In this document: positions 61,041 through 62,859 of the stretch, one piece after another | Numbering within the stretch: position 1 is the first letter of the stretch | How the letters are laid out: each line of letters opens with the position of its first letter | Assembly (NCBI RefSeq): GCF_030053115.1 | Contig: NZ_CP125619.1 | Location: forward strand, 3,421,501-3,485,500 | Origin: Pseudomonas svalbardensis | Lineage (GTDB): Bacteria > Pseudomonadota > Gammaproteobacteria > Pseudomonadales > Pseudomonadaceae | Length of the DNA stretch: 64,000 bases | Reading direction: 5' to 3' | Translations under genes and position numbers: made by a program | Notes under the pieces: model-generated | What the model saw: the letters and a program-made list of their open reading frames with translations, nothing else | What the model was told of the DNA's origin: nothing | The model's database searches: none

Positions 61041-61200
61041 GATTCGTCCTTGTGACGTTGCATGTATGCAAAGCACAAAGTGTGTCACAACCGGCGACGC
61101 ACTCAAGCGATAGAAAACGCCTCCGGTGATCGATAGCATTTTCTGATTGAATCCACGTACCGGCCTCGAGTAAGCTCGGTGCACTCATCGGAGACAAATC

Positions 61201-61329
61201 ATGCTCAACGCCCTCTCACAGCTTCATACCGTCAGCGCCTTGCGCTCGGTGTCGGCTGCCCGGGTGAATGACGTTTGTGCTCCGGTCAGCTTTTATTTTG
61301 GGTATTGGTTTAGCCACTGGCGCGCCTGA
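61201..61329 (+). CDS. Aromatic-rich leader peptide 1 (42 residues)
   Basis: ATG 61201 has GGAG at good spacing. The peptide ends S-F-Y-F-G-Y-W-F-S-H-W-R-A, eight aromatic residues (including two Trp, two Tyr, three Phe) within twelve. GGGTAT in its Gly-Tyr codons (61300-61305) can pair with ATACCC at its stop codon (61329-61334), so a stalled ribosome would change the RNA fold. An intrinsic terminator follows 48 bp later. This is the layout of a transcription attenuator for aromatic amino acid synthesis. A possible promoter is TTGAAT (61147)/TAAGCT (61171). Confidence 0.75.
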   Translation: MLNALSQLHTVSALRSVSAARVNDVCAPVSFYFGYWFSHWRA

Positions 61330-61376
61330 TACCCACACGGCGCCCACTTTATACGGGTCGCCACCAGAGAATTCTC

Positions 61377-61415
61377 AACCCCCGGTCGGCTTCCCGACCG
61401 GGGGTTTTGTTTTTT
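61377..61415 (+). terminator. Attenuator terminator upstream of the DAHP synthase
   Basis: A perfect 13-bp stem, AACCCCCGGTCGG / CCGACCGGGGGTT with loop CTTC, is followed by TTTGTTTTTT. It lies after leader peptide 1 and 250 bp before the structural gene, so it must be bypassed for expression. Confidence 0.93.
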
Positions 61416-61464
61416 CAGCCCCGCACATTTTTAGCGACACACCAGACAACCAGAGGATTCAAAA

Positions 61465-61617
61465 ATGAACTACGCCACTTATTACCGTTACGACAGTTTT
61501 ACCGCCTGGCGATTTAGCAGCCTCCGCTCGGGACAGCCTGCCACCTCCGATCGGTCACCCACAGGTGGCAAGCACACACACGCAGCCAATCCGGCCAATT
61601 GTCGAACACCCCAGTAG
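61465..61617 (+). CDS. Aromatic-rich leader peptide 2 (50 residues)
   Basis: ATG 61465 follows GAGGA. The N-terminal part MNYATYYRYDSFTAWRF contains four Tyr, two Phe and one Trp in 17 codons. The rest is Pro/Thr/Ser/His-rich without character. Downstream structures include GCCACCT/AGGTGGC (61540-61546 with 61563-61569), inside its coding region after the aromatic codons, and GCGGG/CCCGC (61628-61643), just before the DAHP synthase ribosome site AGGAAG. No T-tract follows, so a second level of control, perhaps on translation, is possible. Confidence 0.62.
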   Translation: MNYATYYRYDSFTAWRFSSLRSGQPATSDRSPTGGKHTHAANPANCRTPQ

Positions 61618-61665
61618 GGCCGAGCGCGCGGGAACGAACCCGCCGCCAGCCCAGGAAGCCCGAAT

Positions 61666-62859
61666 ATGAACTCGTCCGTCTCCGCTCTGCCGCTGTCCAC
61701 CTTGAGCCCTGCCAATGAAGCGCTGACCCAGCGTCTGCCCAGCTCATTGCAACTCAAACAGCAATTGCCACTCAGCAACGTCCTGAGCCAGCAAGTCGCC
61801 GCCCACCGCCAAGCGGTTCGCGCGATCCTCAACGGTGAAGACTCCCGTCTGCTGGTCATCGTCGGCCCCTGCTCGATTCACGATCCTCAGTCCGCCCTCG
61901 AATACGCCAGCAACCTCGCCCGCCTCGCCGCCGACGTCAGCGATGAAATGCTGCTGGTGATGCGCGCCTACGTCGAAAAACCCCGCACCACCATCGGCTG
62001 GAAAGGCCTGGCCTACGATCCCCACCTGGATGGCAGCGATGACATGGCGGGCGGTTTGACGTTGTCCCGCGAGTTGATGCGCGAAATGCTCCGCCTGGGA
62101 TTGCCGATTGCCACCGAACTGCTGCAACCGATGGCTGCCGGCTACTTCGACGACCTGCTGAGCTGGGTCGCCATTGGCGCTCGCACCACCGAATCGCAGA
62201 TCCATCGGGAAATGGCCAGCGGCCTGAGCATGCCGGTCGGCTTCAAGAACGGCACCGATGGTGGTGTCGGTGTGGCCAGCGACGCCATGCGCTCCGCCGC
62301 CCATCCGCATCGCCATTTCGGGGTCGACAGCCAGGGTCATCCGGCAATCATTCAGACACCGGGCAATCCCGACACCCACCTGGTGCTGCGTGGCGGACAC
62401 CGTGGGCCGAACTACGACCGCGACAGCGTCGCCCGAGTGAACAGCGATTTGACCAAACTGAAGATCCCGGCCCGGATCATGGTCGACTGCAGCCATGCCA
62501 ACAGCGGCAAAGACCCGTTGCGTCAGCCAGCGGTGTTTAACGATGTGCTTGAACAGCGCCTGCAAGGTGATCGATCACTGATCGGCATGATGATCGAGAG
62601 TCACCTGTTCGAAGGCTGCCAACCGCTGGGCCCGTCAATGCGCTACGGCGTGTCAGTAACGGACGGCTGCCTTGGCTGGAGCGGGACGGAATTATTGTTA
62701 CGCCAGGCAGCCGACCGGCTCAGAGCGCAGAGCGCAGAGCAGGGATCAACAATCGGCGTGAGCCACACCCTCTTCCAGTCCTCCCATCGAGGACTGGACG
62801 TCGGAATCGAGACACTATCAACAGGCAAAGGGTGTTCCCGAAGTAGGCCATCGAAGTAA
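61666..62859 (+). CDS. 3-deoxy-7-phosphoheptulonate (DAHP) synthase, type I
   Basis: This cytosolic enzyme condenses phosphoenolpyruvate with erythrose-4-phosphate, the first step of the shikimate pathway. The type I (AroFGH) signatures are LLVIVGPCSIHDPQSALEYA (residues 62-81), MRAYVEKPRTTIGWKGL, GFKNGTDGG, LRGGHRGPNYD and IMVDCSHANSGKDP, including metal ligands Cys, His and Asp. The catalytic part ends near residue 359. A further 38 residues without family resemblance (starting GSTIGVSHTL) extend the usual length, as if the normal stop were lost. Two aromatic leader peptides and a terminator precede it. Which amino acid inhibits the isozyme cannot be told by eye. Confidence 0.93.
   Translation: MNSSVSALPLSTLSPANEALTQRLPSSLQLKQQLPLSNVLSQQVAAHRQAVRAILNGEDSRLLVIVGPCSIHDPQSALEYASNLARLAADVSDEMLLVMRAYVEKPRTTIGWKGLAYDPHLDGSDDMAGGLTLSRELMREMLRLGLPIATELLQPMAAGYFDDLLSWVAIGARTTESQIHREMASGLSMPVGFKNGTDGGVGVASDAMRSAAHPHRHFGVDSQGHPAIIQTPGNPDTHLVLRGGHRGPNYDRDSVARVNSDLTKLKIPARIMVDCSHANSGKDPLRQPAVFNDVLEQRLQGDRSLIGMMIESHLFEGCQPLGPSMRYGVSVTDGCLGWSGTELLLRQAADRLRAQSAEQGSTIGVSHTLFQSSHRGLDVGIETLSTGKGCSRSRPSK
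62775..62797. repeat. Inverted repeat inside the 3' extension of the DAHP synthase gene
   Basis: CCAGTCCTC-CCATC-GAGGACTGG forms a perfect 9-bp stem with a 5-base loop. No T tract follows. It lies in the unusual C-terminal extension and may be a former intergenic hairpin now inside the reading frame. Confidence 0.6.

Follow-up and report, generated by a model that had tools for sequence, protein, structure and literature searches.

Locus organization

The window (the whole 64,000-nucleotide stretch of Pseudomonas svalbardensis DNA analysed here) carries on its forward strand, like all features described below, a gene for a class I DAHP synthase (DAHPS) of 397 amino acids (61666..62859; TIGR00034, 440.4 bits against a cut-off of 173.2; PF00793). 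In a structure-chain comparison the nearest solved chain is 6agl, named as a Tyr-sensitive aldolase. Profile matches stop near residue 357 of the 397, short of the end of the C-terminal tail (62722-62859); since several close named relatives match the full 397 residues and others match to about 355 only, the tail appears to be a lineage feature.

The gene is preceded by two short ORFs, each with an SD sequence. Leader 1 (61201..61329) has 42 codons and reads MLNALSQLHTVSALRSVSAARVNDVCAPVSFYFGYWFSHWRA, ending with SFYFGYWFSHWRA; leader 2 (61465..61617) has 50 codons and reads MNYATYYRYDSFTAWRFSSLRSGQPATSDRSPTGGKHTHAANPANCRTPQ, with a Tyr-rich start, NYATYYRYDSFTAWRF, and the stop codon TAG. Just 3 of the 751 ORFs of 20-80 amino acids in the window hold at least 7 aromatics within 15 residues, and leaders 1 and 2 are two of these three.

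The first-pass annotation had read the two ORFs as tandem aromatic leaders before the DAHPS gene, and comparison with related genomes bears this out. All 255 distinct loci parsed from the Pseudomonadaceae (279 in all, from 211 of 211 loci of the genus and 68 of 70 of the family) contain leader 1, then a terminator and an ORF 2 rich in aromatics, and both leaders are visible by eye in the two loci missed by the parser (L259 and L264). The aromatic codons and the frames of both ORFs are conserved across the compared loci. Thus, in Pseudomonas and its relatives two conserved aromatic-codon mini-genes precede the first gene of the aromatic pathway. Leader 2 occurs in two sizes, a short form of 27-37 codons (64 of 255 loci) and a long form of 46-54 codons (191 of 255). 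The genome of P. svalbardensis (6.36 Mb) also encodes a second DAHPS, 53% identical to that of the window; no such leader was found among the ORFs upstream of this paralog.

A candidate promoter for leader 1 (TTGAAT, 18 bp, TAAGCT; 61147..61176) was proposed from conservation. It is kept in 61 sampled long-form loci and less so in 64 short-form loci, and a consensus promoter scan did not report it. The leader-2 ATG lies a median of 48 nt beyond the terminator tail (255 distinct loci). A separate promoter in this interval would assign leader 1 to another RNA, as the first-pass annotation had pointed out, but across 61 long-form and 63 short-form loci the stretch from terminator to leader 2 holds no conserved promoter-like block, and a promoter of its own for ORF 2 was rejected as far as sequence can tell.

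Leader 1 and the terminator

The end of leader 1 is constrained at the codon level. Its last 13 codons have a pN/pS of 0.37 (pS 0.024, pN 0.009) among 103 distinct copies of 42 codons, compared with 0.81 for codons 2-29 (pS 0.213, pN 0.172). The 13-bp terminator proposed to follow leader 1 was recovered as an intrinsic terminator of 13 pairs (61377-61406) with a T-rich tail (61377..61416 in all). It is present in 255 of 255 distinct loci, with 48 distinct stems, and lies 45-63 nt after the leader 1 stop codon. The region 61201-61420 as a whole is more stable than shuffled sequences (z -5.38).

Two alternative sets of helices can be drawn from these sequences. In the first, arm A (61300-61308), which overlaps the GYW codons of leader 1, pairs with arm B (61320-61334) as helix 1 (61300..61334; 88.3% of cells paired), arm C (61339-61345) pairs with arm D (61355-61362) as helix 2 (61339..61362; 96.8% paired, mostly invariant), and arms E and F form the terminator as helix 3 (99.4% paired). 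In the second, B pairs with C (61320..61345; 87.0% of cells paired, 25-53% when slid), and this helix is mutually exclusive with both A:B and C:D. The underlying alignment used 36 of 39 rows, the rest having been dropped by hand and many of the dropped rows being among the most divergent. Across these 36 sequences A:B, C:D and E:F together have 94.9% of cells paired, compared with 35-58% when slid, and 11 cells changed on both sides, compared with 2.4 in shuffles; their pair-type counts are not above those of shuffles (468 of 500). The covariation score of B:C is above that of 500 of 500 shuffles. The GGG of D and the CCCC of E are invariant, and an antiterminator pairing D:E rests on invariant bases only. 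Folds of partial transcripts from 6 loci gave no clear stall-dependent change in the pairing of the terminator 5' arm.

Leader 1 thus combines the features by which attenuators of the his/trp type are recognized, namely clustered codons for the pathway products, an intrinsic terminator and mutually exclusive upstream helices. There is good support for regarding the leader 1 region as a predicted his-type, ribosome-mediated transcription attenuator (module 1).

The RNA P15 overlaps leader 1

The Rfam family RF00627 (P15) matches the window over its full model at 61287..61404 (125.4 bits, gathering score 70, E 9.4e-27). Rfam lists P15 as a Pseudomonas sRNA gene; its source is said to be Livny 2006. 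Its conserved core is the coding end of leader 1. Of 298 genomes of the genus, 269 carry P15. At the level of the family it matches 113 of 148 genomes, from 14 of 19 genera, and at the level of the order 21 of 244, of which 12 lie outside the family. DAHPS lies downstream of P15 in the parsed loci whose flank reached that far. Of the 29 genomes of the genus that are devoid of P15, 15 were tested for the isozyme; 14 of these also lack it and have only a paralog of 51-53% identity. In the fifteenth (G206), an 88% DAHPS copy starts at residue 55 at a contig edge, and the upstream DNA is therefore missing. An Rfam search of three loci at E<=1 gave nothing beyond P15-like and weak sRNA matches. A search of the literature, weak in that it covered open-licence papers, yielded no paper that treats P15 as a leader or describes tandem leaders before DAHPS.

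Leader 2 and its invariant codons

Leader 2 is recognizable by its peptide (50-residue query) in 245 of 298 genomes of the genus at E<=1e-3. In each locus the ORF was chosen by a score that favoured aromatics, ATG and SD, which makes the presence of ATG and SD in 255 of 255 loci partly circular. The triplet WRF is in frame in 251 of 255 loci (absent from 4), a count that is not circular for the loci of the genus, where the score ignored WRF; for the 68 family loci the score did use it. The codons of WRF are TGGCGATTT, unchanged in 250 of the 251 loci, and with the following A they form the near-invariant TGGCGATTTA (61507..61516).

Among 137 distinct 50-codon copies, codons 15-17 (WRF) show no change at all (pS 0), and the Tyr run at codons 2-9 is constrained at the codon level (pN/pS 0.37). 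Codons 18-20 have a pN/pS of 4.15, on a small pS, and for codons 37-45 the ratio is 1.03, close to neutral for the peptide. This pattern fits a leader that has to be translated and whose later residues are unimportant. The first 18 residues contain on average 3.6 Tyr, 1.7 Phe and 1.0 Trp. TAG serves as the stop codon in 242 of 255 loci.

A conserved CGAACA (61603..61608) lies towards the 3' end of leader 2 and occurs in 234 of the 245 loci with an R[TS] pair after WRF. In TGGCGATTTA and in CGAACA, synonymous sites are kept without a conserved pairing partner, also in loci devoid of the pseudoknot described below. Three pairing partners were considered for UGGCGAUUU, namely the end of ORF 2, the 3' arm of the downstream hairpin and P15; none is conserved, and such pairing was rejected. 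A combined pattern of TGGCGATTTA and CGAACA, which is unable to match the long form, has one unrelated match in the genome of P. svalbardensis. Leader 2 was also rejected as a mobile or repeated element, being single copy in that genome at E<=0.1.

The long-form element

Long-form leaders 2 contain a gapless element of 63 nt, common to the Pseudomonadaceae and a second family (f36); the short form carries TGGCGATTT without this element. From TGGCGATTT to GGYGGC the length is constant in 225 of the 226 loci of the long form and of f36. The element contains a candidate H-type pseudoknot (61525..61569), with stem 1 at 61525-61531/61547-61553 and stem 2 at 61540-61545/61564-61569. All 119 distinct copies entered the pairing tally, and 118 of them form at least 5 of 7 stem-1 pairs and 6 of 6 stem-2 pairs in H-type order. 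Most f36 copies have all 7 bp of stem 1 intact; in Pseudomonas its third pair is usually mismatched (a non-standard C.U in the window).

In an alignment of 54 of the 119 copies (the rest dropped by hand, many of the dropped rows being among the most divergent), 28 of 63 columns are invariant and the pseudoknot has 95.3% of cells paired, compared with 22-59% when slid. Most of its pairs never vary, and covariation is weak in these 54 sequences: 27 of 500 shuffles attain its number of both-side changes, 86 of 500 attain its covariation score, and the control slid by +3 has a higher covariation score than the pseudoknot. The element may therefore be described as a candidate pseudoknot. The pseudoknot junction (61540-61551) reads CCTCC, invariant in the 54 sequences; CCUCC is the anti-SD core of 16S rRNA.

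The fixed spacing of 8 nt between TGGCGATTTA and the pseudoknot led us to consider a programmed frameshift. This was rejected because the frame of leader 2 relative to DAHPS is not fixed (35-50 nt, all phases) and because the ORF continues in frame.

The leader 2 stop codon and the DAHPS ribosome site

The DAHPS SD (AGGAAG at 61653) is separated from the leader 2 stop codon by a hairpin that fills the gap (61617..61652; -22.6 kcal/mol). Stop codon and DAHPS ATG are 35-50 nt apart in 249 of 254 loci (L256 gave no start), and in L260 and L261 a gap of 15 nt has no room for a hairpin. When all distinct gaps were folded, a hairpin below -8 kcal/mol was found in 197 of 200 (54 of 54 short-form and 143 of 146 long-form gaps), with its last pair a median of 1 nt (short form) or 0 nt (long form) before the SD. 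The hairpin has 95.9% of cells paired, compared with 33-58% when slid, in an alignment of 44 of the 54 distinct short-form gaps from which the other rows, many of them among the most divergent, had been dropped by hand; four of its pairs changed on both sides, and its covariation score was reached by 0 of 500 shuffles. Rows were dropped by hand from alignment A1 as well (40 of 50 selected rows used, many of the dropped rows being among the most divergent). In two long-form loci, L091 (1-3000) and L092, the DAHPS SD lies, by eye, in a hairpin loop just before the ATG, unlike the rest.

The hairpins that the first-pass annotation had assigned to ORF 2 are thus confirmed in sharper form, as a hairpin from stop to SD together with a candidate pseudoknot that lies within the long form of ORF 2. 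The region 61418-61700 as a whole folds no better than shuffles (z -0.94). With stop codon and SD brought together in this manner, the behaviour of the leader 2 ribosome at the stop would be expected to bear on DAHPS initiation.

In folds in which a ribosome was masked at the Tyr, W or F codons, the mean energy for opening the SD changed by -0.05 to +0.35 kcal/mol; with the ribosome masked at the stop codon, the SD became harder to open in 21 of 43 short forms and easier in 21 of 45 long forms. Sequestration of the SD by leader 2 was also considered, and for it this model result is mixed, with no consistent switch in 43 short and 45 long loci. The double checkpoint envisaged in the first-pass annotation stands in one part, that of two serial conserved leaders, of which leader 1 has his-type alternative helices and is followed by an intrinsic terminator; for the other part, sensing by leader 2 through translation or Rho, the masked-ribosome folds gave no consistent change at the DAHPS SD.

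Related families

In family f36 a pattern search found the long-form core in 73 of 151 genomes, representing 11 of 24 genera, and the control with the pattern written backwards had no match among the rows listed. DAHPS is downstream in all 35 f36 loci examined. Thirty of these were fetched by a pattern containing part of the 63-nt element. P15 alone led to the other 5, of which 4 contain the element and one, L298, does not. Two locus entries, L294 and L306, are the same place. From the leader 2 stop codon to the DAHPS ATG the distance is -17 to +7 nt in 23 of the 35 loci. One further locus has 17 nt, and the remaining 11 have 26 nt; these 11 are all of one type in which, by eye, the stop codon lies inside a small hairpin. 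The leader 2 stop in the f36 loci inspected is TGA or TAA, unlike the prevailing TAG of the Pseudomonadaceae. A stop near the downstream start, as expected for termination-reinitiation, is therefore found in f36 itself, and in the Pseudomonadaceae only through the hairpin across the 35-50 nt. Adjacency of stop codon and ribosome site has thus been reached in two ways, directly in f36 and by a folded hairpin in the Pseudomonadaceae.

In a further family (f43), two of seven loci (L288, L289) have a leader 2 with WRF and two (L290, L292) a weaker one. The other three (L287, L291, L293) have leader 1 and no leader 2, and DAHPS follows right after the terminator; the second module is therefore separable from the first.

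Proposed mechanism

With leader 1 abutting a transcription stop signal and leader 2 abutting the DAHPS start, the arrangement points to a two-step control of pathway entry. The leader anatomy, its conservation, the alternative helices predicted for module 1 and the gap hairpin are established at the level of the sequences; the steps that follow are our interpretation. The explanation that we consider the most probable, at somewhat better than even, is that of two serial leaders on one RNA, a transcription attenuator followed by a module 2 at the level of translation. A single RNA, started from a promoter just before 61201, would carry both leaders, and ribosomes would translate and stall on each. 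A ribosome that stalls on the terminal Phe/Tyr/Trp codons of leader 1 would cover arm A, and arm B, being freed, would pair with C and disfavour the terminator. Otherwise, the terminator would form and release the short RNA listed as P15. Beyond the terminator, module 2 would act on translation. Leader 2 opens with its Tyr-rich run, its stop is set against the DAHPS ribosome site (directly in f36, through the spacer-folding hairpin in the Pseudomonadaceae), and the position of its ribosome would set the frequency of DAHPS initiation. The Tyr run of the long form ends just before the candidate pseudoknot, which an advancing ribosome would have to open. A Tyr-rich, translation-level leader tied to DAHPS initiation is the best reading of leader 2. 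Against the explanation as a whole stand the mixed masked-ribosome folds, the unremarkable stability of 61418-61700, the pair-type counts of the module 1 helices, the weak covariation of the pseudoknot and the three f43 loci that have leader 1 and no leader 2.

As to the sign of module 2, we tentatively favour a negative effect: with amino acids in good supply, ribosomes that complete leader 2 would keep DAHPS low. Positive coupling by termination-reinitiation is a possibility that we hold more doubtfully; if purely positive, it would cut DAHPS on Tyr shortage, the wrong direction for feedback. More speculative, and on balance doubtful, is the proposal that leader 2 in its long form represents a novel type of RNA switch that is read by the ribosome and predates the split of two Pseudomonadales families. 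It would consist of a Tyr-rich leader, the invariant UGGCGAUUUA and an H-type pseudoknot with a CCUCC junction, 8 nt further along. A ribosome starved of Tyr-tRNA would halt ahead of the pseudoknot and leave it folded, and a passing ribosome would open it and free a decoy for the ribosome site. Pathway entry would then be checked twice on the one RNA, in transcription by all three aromatics and then in translation mainly by Tyr.

Four other explanations were weighed against two serial leaders. Leader 2 and the DAHPS start might be a C-rich, G-poor loading region for Rho, to which leader 2 ribosomes gate access. After WRF, C exceeds G in leader 2 by about 20% (63 short forms) and 16% (191 long forms), and in the sequences inspected the hairpin before the SD has no T run after it; however, the bias fails to single out leader 2, because the first 150 nt of DAHPS have an equal excess (19.5 and 19.1%). 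The direction would also be wrong, as a ribosome stalled early would expose the loading region, not protect it, and we regard control by Rho as unlikely.

Leader 2 might also be a plain coupled uORF, maintaining translation of the 5' region and passing ribosomes on to DAHPS, with aromatic codons that sense nothing. A termination-reinitiation uORF is known for ppe2 (PMC11260477), and the adjacency of stop and SD in two architectures would suit one here. A coupled uORF would account neither for the codon-level conservation of the Tyr run nor for the rank of ORF 2 among the 3 most aromatic-dense of 751 short ORFs, and is rather unlikely.

Invariance of TGGCGATTTA and of 28 columns in a gapless element is what might be expected of a structured RNA that binds a ligand or protein and for which the reading frame is secondary. 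The element nevertheless sits inside an ORF with conserved frame, start, Tyr run and stop, and the short form has TGGCGATTT and no element, which renders this explanation improbable. It is very improbable that P15 is an independent trans-acting sRNA, as catalogued, even if the terminated leader RNA could act in trans, given its leader 1 coding core, the DAHPS downstream of it wherever the flank reached that far, and the joint absence of P15 and isozyme from 14 of 15 genomes.

If two serial leaders do control DAHPS, an RNA listed for years only as an sRNA would become the attenuator of the pathway's entry enzyme. Natural serial leaders that are separable by mutation would make the shares of transcriptional and translational attenuation measurable for one gene. 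The invariant TGGCGATTT inside a leader ORF, with its synonymous sites kept, poses a directly testable question, and the control of DAHP synthase is relevant to the making of aromatic compounds in Pseudomonas.

Comparison with known systems

The attenuator of the enterobacterial his operon has arms A-F, with A:B, C:D and E:F set against B:C. Leader 1 resembles it in its sensor codons over arm A, in the same set of helices and in the intrinsic terminator. It differs in that module 1 is predicted to sense Phe/Tyr/Trp before DAHPS and is then followed by a second leader. P15, in the catalogue an sRNA gene, is here the end of a leader ORF together with the terminator of DAHPS.

For leader 2, the LEU element of actinobacterial leuA offers a partial parallel. 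As described in PMC1262725, it has a leader with runs of Leu codons and a conserved pseudoknot before the first gene of a pathway; it shares with leader 2 a leader ORF of product codons, a pseudoknot (a candidate here) and the lack of a terminator at the element. Its base stem joins Leu codons and SD, whereas no helix between Tyr codons and the DAHPS SD was conserved in helix scans of 40 long-form and 43 short-form sequences. It also differs in gene, phylum and sequence, and leader 2 follows an attenuator.

Two leader peptides, ermBL and ermBL2, precede ermB (PMC8274638), a likeness in that two leader ORFs stand before one gene under control at the level of translation, as we propose here. There the stalling is by antibiotics, and the parts consulted describe no intrinsic terminator between the leaders. 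In Acholeplasma, uORFC-13-1 before aroF is a single Phe leader with a terminator (PMC8632094) and thus places leader and terminator before the same enzyme function; it is one leader, with no second module in the portion consulted. New here are the invariance of TGGCGATTT, the long-form 63-nt element shared with a second family, and the juncture of leader 2 with DAHPS, by a covarying hairpin from stop to SD in the Pseudomonadaceae and by a stop codon at the DAHPS start in 23 of 35 f36 loci.
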